Below are positions 1,362-40,361 of a DNA stretch of 46,737 nt, in pieces. The position numbers and the translations under genes are program-made. Where the stretch lies: positions 1 through 46,737 of IMG/VR virus record IMGVR_UViG_3300013772_000018; one strand, written 5' to 3'. Origin of the DNA: a virus. Position 1 is the stretch's first letter. The number at the start of each line of letters is the position of its first letter. The notes under the pieces are model-generated. The model saw only the letters and a program-made list of their open reading frames with translations, searched no databases and was not told the DNA's origin.

Positions 1362-1391
1362 TTGACAGTAGCCTTCTTGTCATTGTATAAT
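1362..1391 (+). promoter_or_regulatory. Sigma-A promoter for the mazF-DUF5317 unit
   Basis: TTGACA (1362-1367), 18-base spacer, TATAAT (1386-1391): both boxes match consensus. The leader to the ATG at 1524 is about 125 bases long and holds an inverted repeat, CACATA-tataat-TATGTG (1437-1454), a possible operator or RNA hairpin. Confidence 0.8.
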
Positions 1392-1523
1392 GAGTTATAA
1401 ATAAGTCATCCCTTGTACACATAATACAGGAATTGCCACATATATAATTATGTGTAGGTATAAATCCAAGCAGAGGGGGAATAATATAAGTAAGAAATAA
1501 AACTAAGAAAGAAGGCAGATACA

Positions 1524-1928
1524 ATGATGAATCAAATGAACAATGTTAGCCAAGTGCAACAAATCAATCGTGGGGATATTTATATGGTAAATCTACCTAT
1601 TACGGGTAATTCAATTCAGGGAGGATTGAGGCCGATAATAATCTGCTCGAATTCTATAGCATGTAAGCACTCCCCAGTTTTACAGTACATACCACTAACA
1701 TCTAGGGCGAAAAAGTGGATGCCTACCCACGTAGATGTCGAAGTATCAGTAGAAACTGGATTACGGGTAAAATCTATTGCTATGTGCGAGCAAATAAATT
1801 TAGTTTCTACAGGAGATTTATTAGAAAAAGTAGGAATTTGTAGTAGTCATATAATTAGTAAACTGGATAAGGGAATTTCAATTCAATTGGGATTAGTAGA
1901 TGCAAGAAGTAATGTTGCTTATGCATAA
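1524..1928 (+). CDS. MazF/PemK-family protein (134 aa), no linked antitoxin
   Basis: MazF/PemK-family proteins are usually sequence-specific endoribonucleases. Family marks in order: RGDIYMVNLP (about residues 16-25), GGLRPIIICSN (33-43), PLTSRAKKWMPTHV (57-70) and MCEQINLV (92-99). ATG 1524 is preceded by GAAGG (1511-1515), and the 134-residue length is slightly above the usual 110-120 because of an extra N-terminal tail. No MazE-like antitoxin is encoded next to it; the gene instead leads a unit with a DUF5317-like membrane protein inside an Agr-type locus. A regulatory rather than lethal role is therefore possible (inference). A second MazF domain, fused to an HTH, occurs at 3700-4470. Confidence 0.8.
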   Translation: MMNQMNNVSQVQQINRGDIYMVNLPITGNSIQGGLRPIIICSNSIACKHSPVLQYIPLTSRAKKWMPTHVDVEVSVETGLRVKSIAMCEQINLVSTGDLLEKVGICSSHIISKLDKGISIQLGLVDARSNVAYA

Positions 1929-1947
1929 AAGGAGAGATGTAAAACCC

Positions 1948-2517
1948 ATGATTGAGACAGTTCTATTAGCTTTTATAATAGCTCGAATACGCAAAAATAA
2001 ATTGCTTCCCATATTTAAACACTGGAGTATTTACCCCGTCATATTCATGGCCTTGATATATATTTACTTAGAATCTATGATATGGCAGGGTGACTACTCA
2101 TTAATAAAGTATGCTAATGTCTTCAAAACAGCCTATCTAAGCTCTTTACTTATACTAGCAATACATTATGACAGGATGAATGTCTTCTTGTATTCTACAC
2201 CTCTTATATGGATAGGAACTTCATTAAATGTGATAGCAATGAGAGCAAATGGTGGGAAGATGCCTGTTTTCGTTTCAAATTCTTGGGCTACTGGATATGC
2301 TAAACCAGATATGTTTGAAAAAACATTAGCAGTTGGAGATTTCCATATAATTGGGAATATGTATAGTAATTTGATCCCAATTTGTGACACATGGGACTTC
2401 GGATGGTGCGTGATGTCAATTGGCGATATTATTGTCAGATCATTTGTCTTCTTGGTAATATATTATTGTATAAAAGAATCTAATAAAAAACTACAAATAT
2501 ATAATTTATTTCATTGA
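1948..2517 (+). CDS. DUF5317-like multi-pass membrane protein
   Basis: A 189-residue membrane protein with about five hydrophobic segments and the motif MRANGGKMPVFVSNSWATGY in the middle, which resembles DUF5317 proteins (function unknown). ATG 1948 is chosen because AAAGGAGAG lies at 1928-1936; an open frame extends back to 1900 but overlaps mazF. The C-terminal part has GDFHIIGNMYSNLIPICDTW and a conserved-looking IGDIIVRSFVF segment. It follows mazF by 19 bases on the same transcript. Presence in the locus suggests a part in peptide signalling or in sequestering a partner at the membrane (inference). The next promoter's -35 box overlaps the stop codon. Confidence 0.6.
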   Translation: MIETVLLAFIIARIRKNKLLPIFKHWSIYPVIFMALIYIYLESMIWQGDYSLIKYANVFKTAYLSSLLILAIHYDRMNVFLYSTPLIWIGTSLNVIAMRANGGKMPVFVSNSWATGYAKPDMFEKTLAVGDFHIIGNMYSNLIPICDTWDFGWCVMSIGDIIVRSFVFLVIYYCIKESNKKLQIYNLFH

Positions 2518-2542
2518 CATATGTATACTCTTCTGTTACAAT
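2514..2542 (+). promoter_or_regulatory. Sigma-A promoter for the receptor-agrD unit
   Basis: TTGACA (2514-2519), 17 bases, TACAAT (2537-2542). The -35 box overlaps the TGA stop of the upstream gene. An AT-rich AATATATAATTT element lies just upstream (about 2495-2506), as at several other promoters here. Confidence 0.8.
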
Positions 2543-2576
2543 GATACTAAGATAAAAACAGAAAGAGGCAATACAT

Positions 2577-3380
2577 ATGCAAAATGTAATAAATGCTTTA
2601 CTCAACACGATCTTGGTATCAATACCAGAAAATATATTTTTGGTGACAATGACATTAATATTCTTGAGACGTTTTGACATGCTAGACATACAAATGTGGA
2701 AACATAATTTGAAGTGGATCATGATACCAGTCATACCAGTAGCTATTATGATAAACATTTTTAGGTACATAATAATTATTCCAAAGCCAATAATATCATT
2801 AACAGGTTTAATAATGATGAATGCTATTATGATTTATATCATTACAAAAAATAGTTACTCTGTGAATAAGAAACTGATTATTAAGACAATCCTTTTTACA
2901 TTTGTCAGTTTTGTTATAATTGGATTAGTTGAAATCCTATACATACCGATTGTTCTTTCATTATTACATCAACCCATAAGCTATTTCAATGATAATATAT
3001 CATATAACCTACTATTAACACTCCCTGCCAGAATCATTGAAATATGTATCTTATTATTCATTATAATAAGAAAAAACAACAGTATACAAGTTAATCTCTT
3101 TAATACAATAGTCAAGAATAAATTTTTTACAAATAGTTTTCTAGCTATAGTTATATTTACGGTTTTGGTGATCATCTACATTGCTAAATTAATTATGATC
3201 AATGATATTCTAGTAGACCAGACGATTTTAGATCAATTAATTATAATTATGACCATAATATCTGCCCCAATAATTTTGATTACATGGTTTCTAACTTTTG
3301 TTAATTATTTATTAACAAAAGAAAAACAAATACAACAGACTTACGAAAATCTTATTATGCAAGATGACGTAAATGACTGA
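2577..3380 (+). CDS. AgrC-like membrane receptor domain without histidine kinase
   Basis: 267 residues with six or seven hydrophobic segments (roughly 8-30, 47-68, 72-90, 99-130, 144-165, 187-208, 221-246). The layout, including LLTLPARIIEICILLFIIIRK between segments, is that of the sensor half of AgrC-type peptide receptors. After the last segment only about 20 residues remain (LLTKEKQIQQTYENLIMQDD), like the start of a coiled coil leading to a kinase core, and the protein stops. No DHp or HATPase domain is encoded before agrD starts 41 bases later, so this is not a simple frameshift. It must signal without autophosphorylation, or as a decoy or transporter. Ribosome site AGAGG at 2564. The receptor assignment rests on topology and context. 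Confidence 0.6.
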   Translation: MQNVINALLNTILVSIPENIFLVTMTLIFLRRFDMLDIQMWKHNLKWIMIPVIPVAIMINIFRYIIIIPKPIISLTGLIMMNAIMIYIITKNSYSVNKKLIIKTILFTFVSFVIIGLVEILYIPIVLSLLHQPISYFNDNISYNLLLTLPARIIEICILLFIIIRKNNSIQVNLFNTIVKNKFFTNSFLAIVIFTVLVIIYIAKLIMINDILVDQTILDQLIIIMTIISAPIILITWFLTFVNYLLTKEKQIQQTYENLIMQDDVND

Positions 3381-3420
3381 TGTAGATAGATATCTAATAG
3401 TGAGAGGAGGTGAAATTAAA

Positions 3421-3537
3421 ATGAAAAAGTATTCTATTATTGCTTGCGTTGTTACAGTTGTAGCCACAATGTTTTCAGGTGTTTTTGCGTCATGGCTATT
3501 TACGCACCAACCACAAACTCCAAAGTGCTTAAAATAA
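3421..3537 (+). CDS. agrD: AgrD-like cyclic lactone autoinducer pro-peptide (38 aa)
   Basis: Too short for usual gene callers. MKKYSIIACVVTVV is a basic then amphipathic/hydrophobic leader, followed by SGVFASWLFTHQ and the tail PQTPKCLK. The order leader, small residues, S-W-aromatic core, HQP-x-x-P-x-x-L-K matches Bacillales 'cyclic lactone autoinducer' peptides. Aligned with staphylococcal AgrD, TPKCL corresponds to VPKEL, so cleavage by AgrB would fall after Thr28 and leave a five-residue ring Ser24-Thr28 (S-W-L-F-T). The ring is a prediction. A very strong ribosome site, GAGGAGGTGA, lies at 3403-3412. It follows the receptor gene on the same transcript and is followed by a GC-rich hairpin. 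agrB is 960 bases downstream. Confidence 0.8.
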   Translation: MKKYSIIACVVTVVATMFSGVFASWLFTHQPQTPKCLK

Positions 3538-3551
3538 GTACATAATTCCAA

Positions 3552-3577
3552 ACAGGGAGGACATAAGTCCTCCCTGT
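3552..3577 (+). terminator. Perfect hairpin after agrD (terminator or RNA stabiliser)
   Basis: ACAGGGAGGA-cataag-TCCTCCCTGT: a 10-bp GC-rich perfect stem with a 6-base loop. What follows is AATAATAAAATAT rather than a T-run, so it may act as a weak terminator or as a 3' stabiliser of the receptor-agrD mRNA. The left arm also contains GGGAGG, similar to a ribosome site. Confidence 0.55.
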
Positions 3578-3619
3578 AATAATAAAATATAATTATTTTA
3601 CATATTAGTAATAATTTAG

Positions 3620-3648
3620 TTGCATTCTTAATATAAATAAGGTATAGT
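3620..3648 (+). promoter_or_regulatory. Promoter for the HTH-mazF / agrB unit
   Basis: TTGCAT (3620-3625), 17 bases, TATAGT (3643-3648); the leader to ATG 3700 is about 45 bases. Confidence 0.65.
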
Positions 3649-3699
3649 AACGTTATTGAATGTTAATTATATATTATTTATAAGAAGGAGTGTATTAAT

Positions 3700-4470
3700 A
3701 TGTTTAACAAATCAACTACTAAAACTGAGGAAAATGTTAAAAAGGATTTTAAGAAACTAGCCAATTATGTAATTCGTGCAAAAGGGCAAGAGCGAACTGT
3801 AAATGGATTCGCAGCGAACATGAAAACTAGTGGTGAATACTTAAGTTCAGTTATCAACGCAAGAATAACTACATACCCAACGATACCTTATCTAAAATTG
3901 ATCTCCGACAATTCAGAAGGAAGGGTATCTTTGAAAGATTTAACAATGGCTTGTGGATATTCAAATTACAGCAACAATGATATGGAACAAATAAAAAATC
4001 TTCAAGTAAAAAGAGGGGAATTTTGTTACGTAAATCTAGGAGAAGTTTTGGACTCCGAACAAGGAGGAGTTAGAGTTTGCCTCGTAGTACAGAATAATGT
4101 AGGAAATCACTTTTCTAGTACAACTCTGATCATCCCCCTCACTTCCCGCAGTCGGAAGCCTCAACCAACGCACGTATCTGTGGGATCTGACTGTGGACTT
4201 CCTCAAGAGTCAATTATATGCTGTGAACAAATTCGTTGCGTTTCAAAAAGAAGATTGTCCCAAAATGGTGTGATACAAAAAATAGCAGAATGTTCTCCAG
4301 AAATTCTTAAAAAAGTAAATATTGCAATGCTAAAATCTCAAGGTGTGATCGACATAAGAATGAATGAGCAAGACGCTATTGAATACTTAGATAATATGAA
4401 TACTCAAAAAACTTATCAATATGAAAATAATCATAATCGTAGCGTAAGTCCTCAATTGGTATTCGCATGA
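3700..4470 (+). CDS. Helix-turn-helix - MazF/PemK fusion protein; candidate output regulator
   Basis: 256 residues in three parts. Residues 1-95: an XRE-like DNA-binding module (FKKLANYVIRAKG, VNGFAANMKTSGEYLSSVIN, YLKLISDNSEGRVSLKDL then ACGYS). Residues about 107-215: a MazF/PemK domain with RGEFCYVNLG, GGVRVCLVVQNN, IPLTSRSRKPQPTHV and CCEQIRCVS. Residues 216-256: an unmatched tail. ATG 3700 follows AGAAGGAG (3683-3690). In classical pairs the DNA-binding antitoxin and MazF are separate proteins; a fusion could be a self-repressing toxin or a transcription factor using the MazF fold for binding partners. It shares a transcript with agrB 26 bases downstream. The domains are clear; the role is inference. 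Confidence 0.75.
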   Translation: MFNKSTTKTEENVKKDFKKLANYVIRAKGQERTVNGFAANMKTSGEYLSSVINARITTYPTIPYLKLISDNSEGRVSLKDLTMACGYSNYSNNDMEQIKNLQVKRGEFCYVNLGEVLDSEQGGVRVCLVVQNNVGNHFSSTTLIIPLTSRSRKPQPTHVSVGSDCGLPQESIICCEQIRCVSKRRLSQNGVIQKIAECSPEILKKVNIAMLKSQGVIDIRMNEQDAIEYLDNMNTQKTYQYENNHNRSVSPQLVFA

Positions 4471-4496
4471 GAAAAGAAAGGAAGATTAAATAATTA

Positions 4497-5117
4497 ATGA
4501 TTACAATTCAGAGTACATCAAATTATTGTGCCAGATATTTATCCACAAAAGTTTCTAATGAAATTTATCCAAGTGTAGAAGATCAAATCGAGGTGTTTGA
4601 GTATGGGTTTATGGTCATCATTGGGGCATTGGTCAAGGGGATATTATTGGTGTCACTAGCGTCCATTCTAGGGGTTCTAGTGCCTGTTATAGCTATCACA
4701 TTTACCTTCTCATCATTAAGAATTATAGCAGGAGGATATCATTTAAAAAACTTCTTGGGTTGTATGGTTATAAGTCTAACTCAATTTATCATAAGTTCAA
4801 TAATAGTCCAGTATACTCAGAAGTATTGGACATACATAAATATTTATAGTCTATTTATATTTAGTATTATAGTAGCTATATATATAATAATTAGGTACGT
4901 ACCACGAGATACTCCTAACAAGCCTATCACAGATCAAAAGCAAAAAGTCAAATTCAAAAAATGGTCTTCAATATACCTAACTACATGGACAATGCTAATG
5001 ACCATCTTCTTACTACTACATATAAAAATTATTGTTATTGCCAGTTGCTTTGGATTATTGCTCGAACTCCTCAGCATAAGCACATTGGGACAAAAAATGT
5101 ACACTTTTGTAGATTAA
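4497..5117 (+). CDS. agrB: AgrB-like membrane peptidase processing the AgrD-like peptide
   Basis: AgrB proteins cut the C-terminal tail of AgrD and cyclise the peptide at the membrane. This 206-residue protein has the family hallmark LRIIAGGYHLKNFLGC (about residues 75-90): the catalytic His is followed seven residues later by the catalytic Cys, as in S. aureus AgrB (H77/C84). At least four hydrophobic segments follow, separated by the basic stretch DTPNKPITDQKQKVKFKK, also typical. ATG 4497 follows GAAAGGAAG (4475-4483). Cotranscribed with the HTH-MazF gene rather than with agrD, an unusual order. Substrate presumably the 3421-3537 peptide. Confidence 0.88.
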   Translation: MITIQSTSNYCARYLSTKVSNEIYPSVEDQIEVFEYGFMVIIGALVKGILLVSLASILGVLVPVIAITFTFSSLRIIAGGYHLKNFLGCMVISLTQFIISSIIVQYTQKYWTYINIYSLFIFSIIVAIYIIIRYVPRDTPNKPITDQKQKVKFKKWSSIYLTTWTMLMTIFLLLHIKIIVIASCFGLLLELLSISTLGQKMYTFVD

Positions 5118-5155: not shown

Positions 5156-5405
5156 GAAATAGTACGGGGCGGTAGGGGAGGGGTAACTGACACAAATATT
5201 TCAGAAAGATCCTACATAATATATTTATTTCAACCCCTTATAAACCATTGACTTTATTAAATTAAAGAGTAAACTGTATCTGTGATAAAGTTCGTAACTA
5301 TGTACTGTATCAGTGAAACGTGTTACTTACATATAACCCTTATAAAATTCCCATCAAAATAGTCGGAATACTAAAAATATATAATTAAAAGTAGTTTGTC
5401 GAATC

Positions 5406-5454
5406 GTAGAATAATTAGACGTAGAATCATTCTACAACCTATCATTTGTTCTAC
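5406..5454 (+). promoter_or_regulatory. Operator-like array of GTAGAAT half-sites
   Basis: GTAGAAT at 5406-5412; the perfect 7+1+7 palindrome GTAGAATcATTCTAC at 5421-5435; and GTTCTAC (reverse half-site with one change) at 5448-5454, directly touching the -35 box at 5455. Four half-sites within 49 bases upstream of a promoter suggest binding of a dimeric regulator, for example the HTH-MazF protein or the MrpR-like protein (inference). Confidence 0.6.
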
Positions 5455-5483
5455 TTGACCAAACGTGCGTTCTAATATATACT
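5455..5483 (+). promoter_or_regulatory. Promoter downstream of the half-site array
   Basis: TTGACC (5455-5460), 17 bases, TATACT (5478-5483). The transcript would carry the tiny ORF at 5556/5558 and probably the gene at 5703. Confidence 0.7.
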
Positions 5484-5557
5484 GTTAACAAAGGCAATGT
5501 ACGGGCTAAAGTTTTCTGTTAGAGCGACCGATACTTAATAAAGGAGGTGGATCATAT

Positions 5558-5702: not shown

Positions 5703-6110
5703 ATGAGTAGTTGTGATGTTAAGGGTGATAGGACTGTATGGGTAATTAAAGACCAGATGGGGTGCTTTGCACACAAAGGTAGCATCCATAAAATAGACAC
5801 CTCAGAGTACGTGTATGTGTCTTACAAGAGCTTCAGCGAAGAGTGTAGAGCATACATAGGGGATCAGCAAGCAAAAGAAGCAATGGCAATCTTAGATAAG
5901 AAAAAGGATCTATTAGAAATAGACATTGATTTTCATATTGAGCAACATTCTTTAGCAGGTTTAGGTAAGAATAAAGAAAGTCTTCAAGGTGAAAACATGG
6001 TGCTACATGAGATTAAAGTGTTGTATAATCGGGCTTTGCAACACAATAATATGGTTCCAGCAATGGCTGTTGCTTTACTTGTTGGTAAAACGTTGGGTAT
6101 TGCTGTTTAA
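5703..6110 (+). CDS. Hypothetical protein (135 aa)
   Basis: ATG 5703 follows AAGGGAGATG (5687-5696). The product starts MSSCDVKGDRTVWVIKDQMG, has an N-terminal half likely to form beta strands and a C-terminal hydrophobic helix (MVPAMAVALLVGKTLGIAV). No family recognised. It is the first full gene behind the half-site-controlled promoter and is closed by a terminator, so it may be the main target of the control region. Confidence 0.65.
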   Translation: MSSCDVKGDRTVWVIKDQMGCFAHKGSIHKIDTSEYVYVSYKSFSEECRAYIGDQQAKEAMAILDKKKDLLEIDIDFHIEQHSLAGLGKNKESLQGENMVLHEIKVLYNRALQHNNMVPAMAVALLVGKTLGIAV

Positions 6111-6207: not shown

Positions 6208-6244
6208 TATATTATAGTTGTATAATGTGGAGGAGGATAGAGAA

Positions 6245-7783
6245 ATGCTTATAAGTGAGACGGTGATAATAAGATGGCATTCAAGATACAAAGAATACTA
6301 TGAAAGTAAGGGGTATATTTTTACAAAATTTAAAGATGAATTTGAAATTAAAACCATAGACTTACAAAATGGTTCAGTTGTTGAGGTTATTGTAAAATGT
6401 GACCATAAAGAATGTAAAACACCAATATCAAAACCCGTAAGGTGGCAAGATTATTTAAAGTGTGCAAAAGAAGACGGTAAATATTATTGCCATACGTGTG
6501 CCATGGTATTATATGGAGATAATAATTATAGGATATCAAGATTAAATAATGGAAAATCATTTTATCAATGGTGTTACGATAATTTACCTAAAGAACAATC
6601 CGATTCTATTTTGTCAAAATGGGATTATAGTTTAAATCTTGATAAGAATGGTAATGTATTAACCCCAAAATTAGTTGGATATGGGTCTAGGGGTATAAAT
6701 AAAAAAGGATATTGGTTTAAATGCTTGGATCATCCTGAGCATTTGTCAGAATTAAATAATATTAACAGTTTCACAAGTGGTAGGATTATAAATATTGACT
6801 GTAAAATATGTAATTCAATATTAATGATGCATCCTGATTTAGAAACTTATTTAGTAAATAAAGGTGACGCAATTAATTATGATTTAATATCGAGTAGCAA
6901 AATACTCGCTAAGTGCCCAGATTGTGGTTATGTGAAGGAAATTATTATTAACAATTTAATTAATAATGGGTTTGGATGCAATAAGTGCTCTGATAATATA
7001 TCATATCCAGAAAAATTTCTGTTTAATATGTTAGAACAGTTAAATGTAGACTTTCAGATACAGTTAAGTAAGAAAACTTTCAAATGGTGTAAAAATTATA
7101 GATACGACTTTTATATAAAGAATATAAATTGTATAATTGAGACTCATGGGTTACAACACTATAAGCAAGTTACTGGAACTTGGGGCAAATTAAGCAATAT
7201 ACAAGAAAATGATAAAATAAAAAAACAATTAGCTAAAGATAATGGTGTTAGTAACTATATAATTCTAGATTGTACGTATTCTAAAATAGAATGGATTAAA
7301 AACAACATTACGTTGAGCCAACTAATAAAGTTATTAAATTTTAAAGAATCTGATGTAGATTGGGCATTGTGCCATGAATACGCATGCTCTAGTCTAGTTA
7401 AGATAACTTGCGAACTATGGGATAGTGGAATTAATAATGTATTAGAACTAGCTAATATACTAAAATTAAGCAAAAGTGCAATTTGGACGTATCTTAACCA
7501 AGGAGTAGAATTGGGTTGGTGTACTTATGACGGGAAAGAAGAAAGAAAAAGGAATGTAACTTCACTAGCAGAGAAAAACTGCAAGCAAGTAATTTGCGTA
7601 ACTACAGGAGAGATATTCAATTCACAAAAAGAAGCAACTAAAGCATATATGATGAAAGGTCATGGTGGGATTTGTCAATGTTGTACAAATAAAAAGAAAT
7701 CTGCTGGAAAACATCCAATAACAGGTGAGAAGCTTAAATGGATGTATTATGACGAATATATGAGACTAAAAGAAGCATTGTAA
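6245..7783 (+). CDS. Vsr-like homing endonuclease with zinc ribbons and NUMOD-like C-terminus
   Basis: 512 residues. N-terminal half: several Cys-pair modules (CDHKEC, CHTC, CLDHPEH, CKIC, CPDCGYVKE, CNKC). Middle: Vsr-like nuclease core with PEKFLFNMLEQLNVDF, YRYDFYIKNINCIIETHGLQHY and a downstream QENDKIKKQLA; compare YDF, IE, GLQH with the gene at 130. C-terminal: a short helix-turn-helix (LANILKLSKSAIWTYL) and a NUMOD-like repeat (VICVTTGEIFNSQKEATKAY), modules that read target DNA in homing endonucleases. ATG 6245 is chosen because GGAGGAGG lies at 6229-6236; the frame opens at a TTG (6218) without a ribosome site. Own promoter and terminator, as expected of a mobile cassette. Confidence 0.78.
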   Translation: MLISETVIIRWHSRYKEYYESKGYIFTKFKDEFEIKTIDLQNGSVVEVIVKCDHKECKTPISKPVRWQDYLKCAKEDGKYYCHTCAMVLYGDNNYRISRLNNGKSFYQWCYDNLPKEQSDSILSKWDYSLNLDKNGNVLTPKLVGYGSRGINKKGYWFKCLDHPEHLSELNNINSFTSGRIINIDCKICNSILMMHPDLETYLVNKGDAINYDLISSSKILAKCPDCGYVKEIIINNLINNGFGCNKCSDNISYPEKFLFNMLEQLNVDFQIQLSKKTFKWCKNYRYDFYIKNINCIIETHGLQHYKQVTGTWGKLSNIQENDKIKKQLAKDNGVSNYIILDCTYSKIEWIKNNITLSQLIKLLNFKESDVDWALCHEYACSSLVKITCELWDSGINNVLELANILKLSKSAIWTYLNQGVELGWCTYDGKEERKRNVTSLAEKNCKQVICVTTGEIFNSQKEATKAYMMKGHGGICQCCTNKKKSAGKHPITGEKLKWMYYDEYMRLKEAL

Positions 7784-7901: not shown

Positions 7902-9278
7902 ATGTTAAAAGACGAAGCAGATCAGCTCATATTAAATCTCAATGTATTAATAAAAAAATATGCAGGGAATGACAAAATAAGAGACATAGTTAAGGAAGAA
8001 TTCAATAGTAGAAATATGAAGGCTAGTATTGCAGTTAGTATTTTAACTGAAAGAAGACTGTTGTCAACTCTTGATATTGGTATAAAAAATGAATTAATTC
8101 TATTATTTGTTTTTGCATCTGGTATGTTTAAGGCTCTGACTTTTAAGGAAAATACCACTAGTGAGTCCCTAGGAGAAATAAACGATTGGAATAAAATAAT
8201 TATTGAAGACCATTTTACCACAATCGAAGTTGAAAATTTGAAAAATTATAAACTAGCAAAAAAAGAGGGAGAGAAAGACGAGGTAATTGTATTTCATAAT
8301 ATGTTAGAGATTGCGACGGGGTGTTGGTTAGGAGGTTTGCAGTCAAGACAATTTGCTGAATTAGACGCAGGTAATGAATTCATTTACAATTTTAAAACTC
8401 AACGCGACCCAGTTTATGACGCTTTTGGAATGAAGAAAATTAGTTTAAATAAAACAAAAGCGAAGGAAATTGCTGAAGGACTTCTTTCAGGTGAATATTT
8501 CCCAGACGCTATAGTTATGAATGTATTAAAAAATGGTGAGGACGAAATAAGATATGATAAGAATGGTGACTTAAATATTATTTCAGGTATCAAAAATATC
8601 GTAGATGGGCAACATCGTAAGGTGGGTAATTCAATAGCAATTTCTCAAAACCCAGATTTGGACTTCACTTTTGTATTCATAGTTACCAACTATAGTGAAA
8701 TTAAAGCCCAAAAACAAATGGTACAAATTAATAAGCAAAAACCTATGAAACAGGAACATATTAAATCACTTGACACATCTAAATTAGGTAATGTTGTCAT
8801 CAATTTAATTTTAGATAATTCCAGTAGCGAGTTCGCTCAGTCTATAAAAGAATCCGATTCGGAACTAGCATTTGGGGGCTTGGCAAAAAGGTCTACTTTG
8901 GCAATTTCTGTGGAAGACACCTACTCTGACAGATTACAAAATCGTCTTCAAGCAAAATCAATCGCAAAACATATTGCCAATGTTATAGACTTTATTATTG
9001 GTCTTAATGTAGAAGAATTTATTATTCATCCAGAGGAAACAAAAAAAATCTCGTATATTAATCATAAGAATATGTTTGCAGGATATATTGCTTTGTCGGC
9101 GAAGTTATATGGGTTGGATTTAAAAGAGGAAGAATGGCAGGATAAAGTTGAGCAAGCATTGAGCAAAGTAAACTTCGGTACAAATAATCCTTTTTGGAAA
9201 GATATTAAAATATCAGACCATGATATGAAAAAAGCATCTAGAAACAATCTGTATAAATTCTTTTACAATCTAATCTGA
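7902..9278 (+). CDS. DGQHR-motif protein (DndB-like), YopQ-like by size and position
   Basis: 458 residues. The motif IVDGQHRKVGNSIA (about residues 236-249) is the signature of the DGQHR/DndB family, ParB-fold-like proteins known as the transcriptional repressor of DNA-phosphorothioate genes and found in many phages and plasmids. Nearby VQINKQKPMKQEHIKSLD also fits the family (VNINKTQKPV-type loop). No dnd modification genes are visible, so a DNA-binding or regulatory role is more likely than sulfur modification. SPbeta has a 460-residue protein (YopQ) directly upstream of the MrpR repressor; size and order agree here. First gene of an operon under a consensus promoter; ribosome site AAGGGAG (7886-7892). 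Confidence 0.7.
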   Translation: MLKDEADQLILNLNVLIKKYAGNDKIRDIVKEEFNSRNMKASIAVSILTERRLLSTLDIGIKNELILLFVFASGMFKALTFKENTTSESLGEINDWNKIIIEDHFTTIEVENLKNYKLAKKEGEKDEVIVFHNMLEIATGCWLGGLQSRQFAELDAGNEFIYNFKTQRDPVYDAFGMKKISLNKTKAKEIAEGLLSGEYFPDAIVMNVLKNGEDEIRYDKNGDLNIISGIKNIVDGQHRKVGNSIAISQNPDLDFTFVFIVTNYSEIKAQKQMVQINKQKPMKQEHIKSLDTSKLGNVVINLILDNSSSEFAQSIKESDSELAFGGLAKRSTLAISVEDTYSDRLQNRLQAKSIAKHIANVIDFIIGLNVEEFIIHPEETKKISYINHKNMFAGYIALSAKLYGLDLKEEEWQDKVEQALSKVNFGTNNPFWKDIKISDHDMKKASRNNLYKFFYNLI

Positions 9279-9305
9279 TTGAAATAATTGAAAGGGTTGG
9301 TGTTT

Positions 9306-10340
9306 ATGTTGACTGAAGAAATAAACGACAATAGGTTTCAAGAGAATGAGGTGACATTTAAAGTTGATCCACGTGTCAAAGAGGAATTTCTTGATTCGCA
9401 AATTAGTTCTACAAGAACATTCTATTCTTATATTTTGCAGAAAGCTGATTTTTACGAATTTAAAATAGGGAAAAGCATTTTTAATTTCAATATTGAAGAG
9501 AGAGATGAGCTGTTATTGGCTGAATTTAAAAACAAAACGATTAGTGCTTTTCAATCAAATCTATCTCCTCTCAAAAAATATGTAGATTTTTGTATTAGCA
9601 AAAACTTAGTCAGGCACTTTGAAAATCGTTTCGGTTTAATTCTTCCAAAATTTTATGATAACTATATTGATATTCAAGCAGTTGAAAACTCTTATATTCC
9701 ATTAATTAAGAATAGAGAATGGCAAAAATTATTGGTAAATTATCAAGATAAACTAATTATTGAATTATTGGGATTAGGAGTTAGGGGTCGTACTGAAAAA
9801 GGGAACACTTTAGAAGAATTTATTAATTTTAAAGTTACTGATATCCAATGGGAAGAAAAGTTAATTTATCTAACAAGTAATGATGGCGAATTAAGAGAAT
9901 TATATGTAGATTATTATACACTTGATTTAATTAAAAAAACTATTGATTCTGGGCACTATATTTTTGGTAATGGATTGAAATCTAAAAAGAACGATGAAGG
10001 AATTTACGAGAAAACAGAAAAGGGATTCCCAATTAACGAAACGGAATATGTTTTTCGTGTGCCAGGCAAGAATAAATTTGGTAAGATAGATCACCAATTA
10101 ATTGCTAATAGAATTCAAAGAATCCAATCATGGGTAAATGCTCCCTATTTAAATATATCATCGCTCTGGACTAGTGCTATCATTGACGCAGCTAAAGTGA
10201 TTAAAGATGCTAATGGAGAATTAACTAAAAAGGACTATATCTCTCTCAATGAAAGATTTCAGTATGGATCTAATGAAAAAGGACTTGACGGAGAGAAATA
10301 TTTTCAAAAAACTAAGGATTTAATTAACCTCTATATTTAG
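9306..10340 (+). CDS. MrpR/YopR-like lytic-cycle repressor with tyrosine-integrase fold
   Basis: 344 residues. An N-terminal helical region resembling a core-binding domain (LLLAEFKNKTISAFQSNLSPLKKYVDFCI) is followed by an integrase-like domain (LIIELLGLGVRGRTEKGNTLEEFINF, then KVTDIQWEEKLIYL) corresponding to 'TGLR.sEl..L...DI' of tyrosine recombinases. The conserved catalytic RHRH-Y set is not apparent, as in MrpR (YopR), the SPbeta repressor that keeps the prophage silent. ATG 9306 is chosen by the AAAGGG at 9291-9296; the frame opens at 9288. It follows the DGQHR protein as in SPbeta. A recombinase role is less likely because no catalytic Tyr motif near the C-terminus is seen. Confidence 0.65.
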   Translation: MLTEEINDNRFQENEVTFKVDPRVKEEFLDSQISSTRTFYSYILQKADFYEFKIGKSIFNFNIEERDELLLAEFKNKTISAFQSNLSPLKKYVDFCISKNLVRHFENRFGLILPKFYDNYIDIQAVENSYIPLIKNREWQKLLVNYQDKLIIELLGLGVRGRTEKGNTLEEFINFKVTDIQWEEKLIYLTSNDGELRELYVDYYTLDLIKKTIDSGHYIFGNGLKSKKNDEGIYEKTEKGFPINETEYVFRVPGKNKFGKIDHQLIANRIQRIQSWVNAPYLNISSLWTSAIIDAAKVIKDANGELTKKDYISLNERFQYGSNEKGLDGEKYFQKTKDLINLYI

Positions 10341-14890: not shown

Positions 14891-15628
14891 TTGTTGGAAC
14901 TAAATAAGGTTTATAATGAAGACTGCATCGGGGATAATGGTATGTGTTTGATTGATGATAACTCAATTGACTTAATACTTTGCGACCTACCATATGGAAC
15001 TACAGCGAGAAATAAATGGGACTGTATTATTCCTTTTGAACCTCTGTGGGAACAATATGAGCGCATTATAAAAGATCGTGGTGCAATTGTTCTCACAGCA
15101 CAAACCCCATTTGATAAGGTTTTAGGATGCAGTAATTTAAAGATGCTTAGGTATGAATGGATTTGGGAGAAAACAACTGCTACTGGTCATCTTAATGCAA
15201 AGAGAATGCCAATGAAAGCGCATGAGAATATATTGATTTTCTATAAAAAACTCCCTACATATAATCCACAAAAAACTTTTGGCCACACCCCTGTTCATAA
15301 TTATACAAAATATCAAGACGATGGAACTAATTATGGAAAAACAAAAGTTGGAATTAAAGGTGGAGGTAGTACAGAGAGATACCCAAGAAGCGTTATATTA
15401 TTTCCTACAGATAAACAGAAAGAATCCCTACATCCCACACAAAAGCCAGTTGCTTTATTTGAATACTTAATCAATACATACACAAATGAAGGAAACTTAG
15501 TGCTAGATAACTGTATGGGTTCGTTTACAACTGCTGTTGCAGCTAGGAATTTAGGAAGAAATTACATAGGGTTTGAGCTTGACGAAGCATATTATAATTT
15601 AGGACAAAAGCGGATAAATAATATTTAA
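14891..15628 (+). CDS. Site-specific DNA methyltransferase (beta-class, amino-group type)
   Basis: Transfers methyl from S-adenosylmethionine to adenine N6 or cytosine N4. Catalytic motif IV is SIDLILCDLPYGTT (about residues 25-38; DLPYG in place of DPPY). The S-adenosylmethionine part comes last: LHPTQKPVALFEYLINTYTN, then VLDNCMGSFTTAVAARNLGR and NYIGFELDEAYY, giving the beta-class order. 245 residues, short, with no obvious target recognition insert and no restriction partner nearby: a phage solitary enzyme, probably for protection from host restriction. TTG start, preceded by GAAAGGA (14872-14878). The Mom-like gene at 16548 is a second DNA modifier in the same region. Confidence 0.85.
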   Translation: MLELNKVYNEDCIGDNGMCLIDDNSIDLILCDLPYGTTARNKWDCIIPFEPLWEQYERIIKDRGAIVLTAQTPFDKVLGCSNLKMLRYEWIWEKTTATGHLNAKRMPMKAHENILIFYKKLPTYNPQKTFGHTPVHNYTKYQDDGTNYGKTKVGIKGGGSTERYPRSVILFPTDKQKESLHPTQKPVALFEYLINTYTNEGNLVLDNCMGSFTTAVAARNLGRNYIGFELDEAYYNLGQKRINNI

Positions 15629-16547: not shown

Positions 16548-17159
16548 ATGAGTATAAAGGATAGTTATTATATAAAACCAGTCACACATAAAATAGCAAC
16601 AGAAATAATTATTGAAAAACACTATTTACATAGAAGAGCATCTTGTGTATTTTCCTTTGGTTTATATGAGAAATTAACAGAGAAAATAGTAGGAGTAATT
16701 ATTTACGGTATCCCTGCTAGTCCTAATGTATGTAGAGGTATATGTGGTAATGAGCAACAATTAAATGTTTATGAGTTAACTAGGTTGTGGATTGATGATA
16801 AAGTGCCTAGAAATGGTGAAAGTTTTTTGATAGGAAACACTATCAAGTTACTCGATAAAGAGATTATAGTATCTTATTCAGAACCAGATCACGGTCATGT
16901 AGGTTATGTATATCAAGCAACCAATTGGATATATACTGGATTAACAGCAAAACGTACTAATAGGGTAAAGATAGATGGTTCTACTACTAAACATAATAGA
17001 CACGCACATGAAGATAAAGAAGATACGGTTTTAGTTCCTAGACCAAGAAAACATAGATACATATATTTTAATTGCAAAGGCAAAAAGAGAAAAGAACTTC
17101 TATCTATGCTAAAGTATAATATTGCTCCATATCCGAAATTACATAATATAGCATCTTGA
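16548..17159 (+). CDS. Mom-like DNA adenine hypermodification enzyme
   Basis: 203 residues with features of the Mom family (GNAT-like fold; phage Mu Mom converts adenine to a methylcarbamoyl form and protects phage DNA from restriction). Marks: EIIIEKHYLHRRAS (about 20-33), VIIYGIPASPN (52-62), LNVYELTRLWIDD (74-86), and SYSEPDHGHVGYVYQATNWI followed by YTG (110-132), the typical aspartate-glycine-histidine and QATNW block. A basic C-terminal tail follows (RPRKHRYIYF). Possibly works with the methyltransferase at 14891 to protect phage DNA. GAAAAGAG precedes ATG 16548. Family assignment from motifs; the exact chemistry is inferred. Confidence 0.75.
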   Translation: MSIKDSYYIKPVTHKIATEIIIEKHYLHRRASCVFSFGLYEKLTEKIVGVIIYGIPASPNVCRGICGNEQQLNVYELTRLWIDDKVPRNGESFLIGNTIKLLDKEIIVSYSEPDHGHVGYVYQATNWIYTGLTAKRTNRVKIDGSTTKHNRHAHEDKEDTVLVPRPRKHRYIYFNCKGKKRKELLSMLKYNIAPYPKLHNIAS

Positions 17160-37166: not shown

Positions 37167-40100
37167 TTGAAAATAGAACAATGGCTTACAGAACAATTAG
37201 GAAAAGATATTTGGGATAATAAATACCGATTCAAAACAGAATCATTTGATGAATGGGTAGATAGAGTATCAGCAGGAAATGAAGAAACAAAACGATTAAT
37301 CTATGAAAAGAAGTTTCTCTTTGGTGGGAGGACATTATCTAATAGAAAAACAGGTAAAAATGCAAGTTATAGTAACTGTTATTCAAGTGGGTATGCTCCA
37401 GATTCTCTACTAGGAATTATGGAACTTAATACTAATCTTGCTATGACATATAAATCTCAAGGTGGTCAAGGATTATCATTATCTAAGATCAGACCAAAAG
37501 GCACAGATATTAATGGACAATTTGAATCTGATGGGATCTTGCCTTTCATGAGGATATTTAATATTACTACAGAGAGTGTTAGTCAAGGTGGTAGTAGAAA
37601 AGGTGCATTATTAATGTCTCTTGCTTGTGACCATAAAGAAATTAATGAGTTTATTAGTATCAAGACTAAAGATAACTCAATCAATAAAGCAAATCTTTCA
37701 GTAGAATTTGATGATGAGTTCATGTTAGCTGTAAAGAAATTCTATGAAACAGGTGAAAAAACAGTCCTTGATATCACAAAAAAATATGAAGGTAAATCTA
37801 TTACATATAAAATAACTCCAATTGACATATATAAGAACTTTGCAAATAGTTCATATAACTGGGCTGAACCTGGGGCAATCATGACTAATAGATTCAGAAA
37901 TTATAATCTAATGGAGTTTATTGTCGAATATGAGATTGTAACAGGCAACCCTTGCTTCACAGGAGATATGGAATTGCTAACAAAGGAAGGTTATAAAACA
38001 CTCTCAGAATTAGAAGATAAAGAAGTACAAATTATTAATCCTGATGGCAACACATCAGAAGGAAAAGTTTGGTGTAGTGGAGAGAAAGATATTATTCAAC
38101 TTACTTTAAGTAACAAGAAGAGGATAAAATGCACTCCAGACCATGTATTCATGTTAAATAATAATAATGAGTCACAGGCTAAAGATACTCTAAAACAAAG
38201 ATTAACCTCTTATTACGGAGAAACTAATTTATCAGAAGATATTTTTGTACAATTAGGGTTCATCCAAGGAGATGGATGTGTTGGCAGAATTAACTCAGAA
38301 CATCATCTAGGATTAGAAGTCAATATTGGAGATAAGGATGATGAGATTTTAGACTTGTTTGAAGTATCTAAGGTTGAAGGGAAACGTGCTTATTACATAA
38401 ATGGCTATAATGATCTATTGGTACAGTATGGGTTTGATGGTAGCGTATTACCAGAACGAGTATTCCCTATTACCTATACATCTTGGATGAAGTTTCAAAG
38501 AGCAAATTTCTTAAAAGGATGTTATTCGGCAAATGGTTGTGTGATTAAAACTCACAGAGTATCATACAAAACTACTTCAAAAGTATTCTCATTGCAGTTA
38601 AAGAAAGCATTAGAAGAATTTGGGATCACGGCATATATTACTACTAATAAACCAACAATGGTTAAGTTTTCAAATGGAGACTACCTATGCAAAGAAAGTT
38701 ATGATGTTAACATTAGTAGATTAACTGATATAATTACATTTTATCAATCCATAGGGTTTATGCAACAATACAAAATCCATGATTTAGTTGATTTAATTAA
38801 AATTAAGAGTCCAAAAGTGACATCTATTAAAAAACTTCCAAAAGAAAAAGTATATGATTTCTCTGAGCCATTAACCCATTGGGGAGTAGTAGAAGGAGTA
38901 GTCGTACATAATTGTGGGGAACAACCTCTTCCAAAGGATGGTGCATGTAATTTAGGTTCAATGAATTTTTCTGCCTATGTTGTGAACCCATATACTAAAG
39001 AATCATACTTTGATGATGATGCATTTTCAGAAGATGTTAGAGTAGCTATTGAATCATTAGATAATGTCCTAGACGAAGGAAAACTTCTTCATGCATTAGA
39101 AAGTCAAAGACAAATGGCAAATGATTATAGGAATGTTGGATTAGGCATTATGGGTCTTGGGGATATGTTTATTAAACTAGGTATGAAATATGGTAGCGAA
39201 GAATCAAAACGAATTCTTGATGTTATTATGTTTGAAATGTTTAGAAGTGCAGTTTGGAAGAGTGCAGAATTAGCAATAGAAAAAGGATGTTTTCCTAAAT
39301 ACTCAGAAAAAGTATTTGACTCTACTATTATTAAAGATCATTTTGACGAAGAAGAAATTGATACACTTAGAAAAATGGGTCTAAGAAACTGTTCACTTCT
39401 AAGTATTGCACCTTCTGGTTCTATTGGGACAATGTTGGATATTACAACTGGAATTGAACCTTGTTTTTCACTCTCATATCAGAGAAAAACAGAATCATTA
39501 CATAAAGATAAAGAAGTATCTTATACCGTTTTTATGAGTAGTGCAAAAGAGTATATGGAATTATACAACACAGAAATACTACCAGATTACTTTGTAACAT
39601 CAAATGAAATTCCTTGGAAAGACAGAATTGATATTCAAGCTATTGCACAAAATCATGTAGATACAGCAATTTCTTCTACAGTAAATCTTCCAGAGAGTGC
39701 GACACTTGAAGAAGTTGAACAATTGTATTTATATGCTTGGGAGAAAGGATTAAAGGGAGTAACTATTTTTAGGGATAATTGTGCAAGACTTGGTATATTG
39801 ACTAAACCAACAGTAGAAAAGAAAGCTATTGAAACAGTATTAGATCGTGGGTTTGTGACTAAAGCACCATCAGAAGCAGAAGGTAAGACATATAAATTTG
39901 TTAGTGGTTGTGGTAATGCATATGTTGGAGTGACATGGGATGAAACAGGTAAGATTAATCAAACATTTACTAACAAAGGAAGTAGTGGTACCTGTAGAAG
40001 TAATCAAGAGGCTGTATCAAGATTAGTATCATTAGCATTGCGTGGCGGTATTCCAATTGAGAAGATTATTGATCAATTAGAAAGTGTAGATATTTGTCCA

Positions 40101-40361
40101 TCATACATAAGTGCTAGAGCTAAAGGAAAACCAGTTAGCAAAGGAGTTAGTTGCCCTCATGCTATTGCTAATATTCTTAAACAAGCAATTAAAGATGTTG
40201 GTGTTAAATTTGAGAATGTTGATAAGATTTTGCAAACTAAAACAGTTGTGGTAGAAGAAGTTGCTGATAATTCAAGATTATGTCCCGAATGCAAAGAGTC
40301 TTTAATTAATGAAGGTGGTTGCATTCAATGCAAATCATGCGGATATTCTAAGTGTAACTAA
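37167..40361 (+). CDS. nrdJ: Adenosylcobalamin-dependent (class II) ribonucleotide reductase with intein
   Basis: Makes deoxyribonucleotides for phage DNA synthesis. 1064 residues, 744 without the intein (263-582), normal for NrdJ. Marks: FGGRTLSNRKTG, SNCYSSGYAPDSLLGIMELN, GGQGLSLSKIRPKGTD, GGSRKGALLMSL; the split active-site motif N261-P262 / C583-GEQPLPKDGACNLG; SIAPSGSIGTMLD; and the C-terminal zinc ribbon CPECKE...CKSCGYSKC. TTG 37167 with GGAGGA before it. SPbeta itself carries a class I NrdEF, so the enzyme class differs; the host must supply B12. Splicing is needed for activity because the catalytic Cys follows the intein. Confidence 0.93.
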   Translation: MKIEQWLTEQLGKDIWDNKYRFKTESFDEWVDRVSAGNEETKRLIYEKKFLFGGRTLSNRKTGKNASYSNCYSSGYAPDSLLGIMELNTNLAMTYKSQGGQGLSLSKIRPKGTDINGQFESDGILPFMRIFNITTESVSQGGSRKGALLMSLACDHKEINEFISIKTKDNSINKANLSVEFDDEFMLAVKKFYETGEKTVLDITKKYEGKSITYKITPIDIYKNFANSSYNWAEPGAIMTNRFRNYNLMEFIVEYEIVTGNPCFTGDMELLTKEGYKTLSELEDKEVQIINPDGNTSEGKVWCSGEKDIIQLTLSNKKRIKCTPDHVFMLNNNNESQAKDTLKQRLTSYYGETNLSEDIFVQLGFIQGDGCVGRINSEHHLGLEVNIGDKDDEILDLFEVSKVEGKRAYYINGYNDLLVQYGFDGSVLPERVFPITYTSWMKFQRANFLKGCYSANGCVIKTHRVSYKTTSKVFSLQLKKALEEFGITAYITTNKPTMVKFSNGDYLCKESYDVNISRLTDIITFYQSIGFMQQYKIHDLVDLIKIKSPKVTSIKKLPKEKVYDFSEPLTHWGVVEGVVVHNCGEQPLPKDGACNLGSMNFSAYVVNPYTKESYFDDDAFSEDVRVAIESLDNVLDEGKLLHALESQRQMANDYRNVGLGIMGLGDMFIKLGMKYGSEESKRILDVIMFEMFRSAVWKSAELAIEKGCFPKYSEKVFDSTIIKDHFDEEEIDTLRKMGLRNCSLLSIAPSGSIGTMLDITTGIEPCFSLSYQRKTESLHKDKEVSYTVFMSSAKEYMELYNTEILPDYFVTSNEIPWKDRIDIQAIAQNHVDTAISSTVNLPESATLEEVEQLYLYAWEKGLKGVTIFRDNCARLGILTKPTVEKKAIETVLDRGFVTKAPSEAEGKTYKFVSGCGNAYVGVTWDETGKINQTFTNKGSSGTCRSNQEAVSRLVSLALRGGIPIEKIIDQLESVDICPSYISARAKGKPVSKGVSCPHAIANILKQAIKDVGVKFENVDKILQTKTVVVEEVADNSRLCPECKESLINEGGCIQCKSCGYSKCN
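37953..38912 (+). mobile_element. Intein with LAGLIDADG endonuclease inside NrdJ
   Basis: 320 residues in frame. N-terminal splice block CFTGDMELLTKEGYKTLSEL (Cys1), block B-like region DHVFMLNNNN, LAGLIDADG-type motifs LGFIQGDGCVG (near NrdJ residue 361) and FLKGCYSANGCV (near 448), C-terminal block WGVVEGVVVHN (His-Asn) followed by Cys+1. The insertion falls precisely before the thiyl-radical cysteine in NP/CGEQ. Second motif has Asn instead of an acidic residue, so endonuclease activity may be lost. Confidence 0.93.

Follow-up and report, generated by a model that had tools for sequence, protein, structure and literature searches.

An Agr-type peptide locus with MazF-family proteins at the lysogeny region of an SPbeta-like phage: a candidate parallel to arbitrium

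Among systems of phage communication, arbitrium serves as the reference. Its aimR-aimP genes in SPbeta and phi3T lie upstream of an operon carrying yopM-P, yopQ and yopR, and work on the product of the last gene, MrpR (YopR), has shown it to be the master repressor of SPbeta, a protein with the tyrosine-recombinase fold that lacks recombinase function (PMC10516654). In phi3T, AimX and YosL block the host MazF, and the build-up of AimP frees MazF, which promotes lysogeny (PMC10769878). A locus of a different make-up occurs in the IMG/VR virus record IMGVR_UViG_3300013772_000018, the whole of which, 46,737 bases in length, was analysed and is called the window here. In this record, an AgrB-like protease, an AgrD-like pro-peptide, a membrane protein designated REC and two MazF-family proteins are encoded just upstream of homologues of yopQ and mrpR. 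In the papers searched, Agr-type genes were not described for any SPbeta-like phage. The parts are of known kinds and, as far as can be told, what is new is their arrangement, the lack of a kinase in the receiver and the placement in a lysogeny region. The locus is probably a peptide communication module with switchable pherotypes, through which an SPbeta-like phage controls lysis-lysogeny in functional parallel to arbitrium.

A conserved core upstream of yopQ and mrpR

Six intact genes, all on the plus strand, occupy positions 1524-5117 of the window. They encode a free MazF, taken to be an accessory RNase-like protein (1524-1928, 134 aa; PF02452, E=1e-18), a DUF5317 membrane protein (1948-2517; PF17248, E=2e-15; the frame is open from 1900 and the start was set by relatives), REC (2577-3380), AgrD (3421-3537), a fusion of an N-terminal domain to MazF (3700-4470; PF02452, E=4e-22 for the MazF part) and AgrB (4497-5117). 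This is the gene content that an earlier, sequence-only reading of the DNA had proposed, and all of it was recovered by Pfam or TIGR matches or, for REC, by topology. The membrane peptidase AgrB matches PF04647 at E=5e-36, and the His/Cys motif that the same reading had called intact consists of His82 (codon 4740-4742) and Cys89 (codon 4761-4763), both of which are invariant across ten sequences. The 38-aa AgrD pro-peptide scores 31.3 bits against TIGR04223, which has a curated cut-off of 19.

A first scan with the MazF fusion as query returned three viral contigs in which the six genes follow the order of the window, two of them with a homing endonuclease inserted. Alignment scans with the fusion, REC and AgrB, and then with YopQ, gave 18 loci including the window once near-copies were removed. 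The core of REC, agrD, the MazF fusion and agrB is found in all 18, each time upstream of yopQ-mrpR homologues, so that the conserved neighbourhood proposed from the window is widespread, being shared by 18 distinct viral contigs; scans with the fusion, REC and AgrB brought up no locus outside the yopQ-mrpR setting. The fusion is therefore a core part, and the free MazF and DUF5317 are accessory, as each is absent from some loci (DUF5317 is found in most, and the locus L036 consists of the four-gene core without either). The order can also vary, with agrB sitting upstream, between mazF and DUF5317, in L033, L076 and L090.

The genes downstream of the cassette identify its setting. The YopQ (sroE) homologue, a member of the DndB/DGQHR family (7902-9278, plus strand), matches SPbeta yopQ by tblastn at E=3e-16 and also matches PF14072. 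It is followed by the MrpR/YopR (sroF) homologue, the presumed lysogeny repressor (9288-10340, plus strand), which scores 48 bits against PF22822 (MrpR_N_CB; cut-off 27). A single-sequence phmmer search of the PDB with this protein returned hits at E of about 1e-6, all of them SPbeta MrpR/YopR apart from one further core-binding protein, and the recombinase box-II HxxR is absent from it in an alignment read by eye. A small gene and a homing endonuclease lie between the cassette and yopQ-mrpR in the window. With YopQ and MrpR homologues a short way downstream, the agr locus thus occupies the arbitrium position, a setting that the earlier reading had not recognised. The small gene (5703-6110) is conserved, and in some phages it is located beyond mrpR instead.

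Agr and arbitrium genes were not found together at this position. Among 67 yopQ rows, 18 have agr, 30 have aimR, none has both and 19 have neither, the last class being in part a consequence of short flanks, as with L083, where AimR lies just beyond the flank. AimR (NF038310) was below cut-off or absent in each of the 18 agr contigs, searched over their whole length, though many are fragments. Carriers of agr fall into two yopQ clades and carriers of aimR into others, and the two systems are for this reason alternatives across lineages and not alleles of one lineage.

Block exchange and the predicted signal

The window and a near-identical phage, L034/L038 (IMGVR 3300011994_000006), provide a natural pherotype swap. 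Their YopQ and MrpR proteins are 100% identical and the flanking DNA is mostly 97-100% identical, whereas a block whose limits lie at about 1563, early in mazF, and at about 5019, shortly before agrB ends, has been swapped for a divergent allele, with identity mostly at 40-75%. At the protein level, identity falls to 45% for REC, 57% for AgrD, 59% for the fusion, 65% for AgrB and 44% for the free MazF, and DUF5317 has been lost from L034. Identity between the two phages dips also at 5301-5500.

A wider comparison of protein distances across 14 loci (Spearman/Mantel with permutation) shows the same coherence. Distances for REC, AgrD, the fusion and AgrB inter-correlate at 0.67-0.81 (permutation p 0.002-0.005), as do those of YopQ and MrpR at 0.82, whereas the core cassette correlates at -0.16 to 0.01 with YopQ and weakly, at 0.15-0.29, with MrpR. 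DUF5317 is intermediate (0.40-0.53). This pattern indicates that the exchanged unit is the four-gene core plus, loosely, DUF5317; the free MazF was also considered as part of the exchanged core and was dropped, its Mantel r being about 0. Related genomes in which the genes are carried apart would have spoken against a functional unit, and the genes were instead found to be exchanged as a single block. The conserved order and the block exchange strongly suggest that the parts work together, as had been proposed.

The predicted signal is the most variable part of AgrD. Read against Agr pro-peptides, the AgrD of the window has a predicted ring of Ser24-Trp-Leu-Phe-Thr28 followed by the tail HQPQTPKCLK, and the 18 loci have 18 different predicted ring sequences. 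The first ring residue is Ser in 16 loci and Cys in two (L043 and L090), and the four subsequent positions are highly variable, with an entropy of 2.2-2.6 bits. The flanks are conserved, with an invariant Gln after the ring and a Pro kept in 17 of 18. The exchange of Ser for Cys, together with variability concentrated in a ring whose closure is predicted, would be expected of a true family of autoinducing peptides (AIPs) with many pherotypes. At the tail position where Glu is usual in Agr peptides (..PKE..), most of the AgrD sequences have Cys (..PKC..), and in the distant loci L036, L077 and L080 the position is held by E, M or I.

Receiver, output and competing explanations

The gene for REC directly precedes agrD in all 18 loci. 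It encodes a membrane protein of 267 aa with multiple helices and an acidic cytoplasmic tail that is too short for a kinase, and topology and position make it the presumed signal receptor. It had been described as a receptor-like membrane protein without kinase; it is indeed kinase-free, and the receptor-like part of the description follows from position and topology, homology to AgrC not being shown. REC had no match in Pfam or the PDB, and a REC model (pLDDT 70) gave no fold match by Foldseek. Profile comparison with AgrC sensors gave no signal, a result that is uninformative because five genuine AgrC sensors also miss each other by this method. A second REC paralogue (REC2) without its own agrD occurs downstream of the cassette in L003 (7610-8461), L007 (8662-9525), L009 (8634-9467), L021 (7631-8452) and L033 (7001-7801). 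REC2 is more alike between phages than REC1, with L007 and L009 sharing 74% identity in REC2 and 44% in REC1.

Two-component partners appear to be absent, in agreement with the proposed lack of an AgrC kinase and an AgrA regulator. The 18 agr contigs, searched over their whole length though many are fragments, gave no HATPase_c or Response_reg match, and the 14 of them searched for HATPase_c_5 and LytTR gave neither of these; a separately encoded kinase partner for REC was likewise not seen in the 18 contigs. The MazF fusion is the only constant cytoplasmic partner; the earlier reading had taken MazF domains as the sole visible cytoplasmic outputs of the locus. Both MazF proteins have B. subtilis EndoA and S. 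aureus MazF as their closest relatives (the best PDB matches for the free MazF), and both keep the catalytic residues, with Arg retained and the catalytic Thr present as Thr or Ser in 12/12 sequences of the free MazF and 14/14 of the fusion. The fusion had been read as joining a helix-turn-helix (HTH) domain to MazF; its MazF part stands, and the HTH label for the N-domain (about residues 1-98) found no support in Pfam, PDB profiles, profile comparison or a confident model.

In scans of the neighbouring open reading frames (ORFs), no antitoxin family was matched, although short antitoxins are easily missed by such scans. A C-terminal tail of the form xVA[YF]A(x), which is SsrA-like, occurs in 10/12 free MazF and 14/14 fusion sequences versus 13/294 ORFs overall, and this resemblance to a proteolysis tag may explain control without MazE. 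A MazF gene also lies just upstream of yopQ-mrpR in L078 (2536-2952) and L133 (7394-8077), phages without agr or aimR, and the link of MazF to this region may consequently predate both signal systems.

Signalling through the locus is proposed to proceed as follows. AgrB would trim AgrD and cyclise it, giving a Ser (or Cys) lactone ring of five residues, which would be released and sensed by REC from outside the cell. Since REC has no kinase, it would relay its state by protein contact and not by phosphate, most likely to the N-domain-MazF fusion, the presumed cytoplasmic output. The MazF fold of the fusion would in turn act on RNA, and the N-terminal domain may act on the promoters of the locus. 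The output would feed the adjoining yopQ-mrpR genes, such that many signalling phages nearby would bias the decision towards lysogeny, as with MazF in phi3T.

The locus had been described as three promoter-led units. The P1 site (1362-1391, plus strand; TTGACA-18-TATAAT) matches the sigma-70 consensus at 12/12 positions and is common to the window and L034 only, and P2 (2514-2542, plus strand; TTGACA-17-TACAAT, with TG ahead of the -10) precedes REC, matches at 11/12 and has a -35/-10 region conserved in 14 loci. P3 (3620-3648, plus strand; TTGCAT-17-TATAGT), before the MazF fusion, is weaker in the window, though in relatives TTGACAT and TATAAT are conserved. As a class, promoter-like sites are not above chance (36 versus 30.8 expected, sd 5.8). 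A conserved hairpin after agrD (3552-3577, plus strand) shows compensatory changes in 7/10 pairs over 14 loci; its loop is often UUCG and it is followed by a conserved AT-rich stretch instead of a U tract, and it is not called a terminator. At P2 and P3 the half-site TAAG[AG]TA occurs at 12.5 times its density in the rest of the loci, and a TAAGATAT...ATATCTTA dyad flanks P3 in part of the loci. As candidate binding sites for the N-domain these motifs are suggestive only, being AT-rich, drawn from related loci and missing from half of them. A repeated operator like SPBRE was not found in the window.

Several points weigh against a communication module. The mutual exclusion of agr and aimR may reflect lineage history and not replacement within one genome, and the co-variation of the core proteins is partly a product of physical linkage in the swapped block, which by itself does not prove protein contact. 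A DNA-binding role for the N-domain is not confirmed, kinship of REC to AgrC or to any fold could not be demonstrated, and the free MazF, whose distances run independently of the cassette, is unlinked to it. Finally, every agr contig is metagenomic, and several are from one metagenome.

Other explanations for the locus have to be weighed in turn. The phage peptide might target the Agr receptor of the host as an agonist or blocker, with REC serving as a decoy or processing partner and MazF as unrelated cargo. This would suit a phage without kinase or regulator, the hosts of the group being presumably Bacillota, where Agr is common. Moreover, such host steering has been suggested for phiCDHM1, which has agrDBC without agrA (PMC3901668). 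It is nevertheless an unlikely explanation here, since REC, AgrD, AgrB and the fusion are co-inherited and swapped together, their position is fixed at the yopQ-mrpR repressor genes, and the ring differs in every phage, beyond expectation for the matching of a host receptor. Similarly improbable is a competition device, in which the peptide would be a bacteriocin-like weapon or exclusion signal, REC the immunity protein and MazF an abortive-infection effector against other phages. The peptide and membrane protein genes do adjoin and co-vary, REC2 copies without their own agrD are common, and host MazF has been described as a phage-defence toxin (PMC10769878); the AgrB/AgrD chemistry, however, is typical of signals, the ring length fits AIPs, and every locus lies in the region of lysogeny control, as arbitrium does.

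A still slimmer chance attaches to the Agr and MazF genes being functionally separate lodgers at a recombination hot spot beside yopQ. That the free mazF evolves independently, that homing endonucleases have repeatedly invaded the locus and that mazF stands alone upstream of yopQ in L078 and L133 would all agree with such an origin, but the fusion belongs to the core in each of the 18 loci, its distances track those of REC, AgrD and AgrB (r 0.67-0.80), and the core of L036 exists without free mazF or DUF5317. The communication module thus remains the preferred reading, and if it is true, a signalling chemistry unrelated to that of arbitrium stands at the same control point, once more in the company of MazF. 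Lysogeny would then have come under peptide control on at least two occasions, MazF would recur as an effector and not be a peculiarity of phi3T, and an Agr-type system without two-component signalling would offer a new receptor mechanism to test. The chances are about even for the broader proposition that communication between viruses has evolved independently a second time, as a class of system in which a receptor without a kinase senses a cyclic peptide outside the cell and passes the signal straight to a fusion of RNase and regulator. Such a system would replace arbitrium at the same SPbeta-like control point and be exchanged between phages as pherotype cassettes.

No relative was found when 85,000 cellular species genomes were scanned with the MazF fusion and with REC, and tblastn with AgrB and REC gave no match in named phages and, in plasmids, remote AgrB only, belonging to ordinary agr loci where annotated. 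One agrB-agrD pair (L068, 5890-6542) is on a 229-kb linear 'plasmid' of Paenibacillus rhizovicinus, possibly another phage-like carrier, with no kinase or LytTR gene annotated within 6 kb. Homing-endonuclease-like genes occur repeatedly between mazF and DUF5317 or nearby (L002, 2569-4122; L009, 3365-5176; L021, 2531-4267), and the window itself has them at 130-1065 and 6218-7783. Farther along the window, a DNA methylase (14891-15628) and a Mom-family protein (16548-17159; PF25680, E=3e-42) point to modified phage DNA, and a ribonucleotide reductase large subunit of 1064 aa (37167-40361) extends about 300 residues beyond the matched family stretch, possibly through an intein.

Comparison with known systems

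Like Agr systems with AgrB, AgrD, AgrC and AgrA, the locus has the catalytic His and Cys of AgrB and an AgrD made up of a leader, Ser or Cys plus four ring residues and a QP..P tail. It differs in being phage-borne and without AgrC kinase or AgrA, having in their place a membrane protein with a short cytoplasmic tail and a MazF fusion as the constant cytoplasmic partner. The agr3 locus of the Clostridioides phage phiCDHM1 likewise places agrB and agrD in a phage without AgrA, but its AgrC is a histidine kinase with a HATPase domain, and it is found close to the gene for the endolysin instead of in a lysogeny region of the SPbeta type (PMC3901668). The MazEF/PemIK systems share the MazF fold and the catalytic Arg and Thr/Ser, the nearest proteins being those of B. 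subtilis and S. aureus, whereas in the phage locus an adjacent MazE was not detected (short antitoxins are easily missed), one MazF is fused to an N-domain, and the proteins end in xVA[YF]A-type tails.

With SPbeta-like phages, the window shares an MrpR-type repressor accompanied by YopQ, as the above-cut-off PF22822 score and the tblastn match indicate. The closest parallel is with arbitrium of SPbeta and phi3T, which is also a phage peptide module with a variable signal and sits a short way upstream of the repressor genes yopQ-mrpR (sro). In both, a stem-loop follows the signal gene, the AimR-controlled terminator of phi3T being at the place that corresponds to the hairpin after agrD, and MazF, which takes part in the phi3T decision (PMC10769878), is represented by MazF genes in the locus. 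The agr locus is without AimR and YopP, and a linear AimP was not seen. Its signal is instead an Agr-type cyclic peptide, presumably sensed extracellularly by a membrane protein, and whereas phi3T uses the MazEF of its host, the MazF here is phage-encoded, with one copy fused to a new N-domain.

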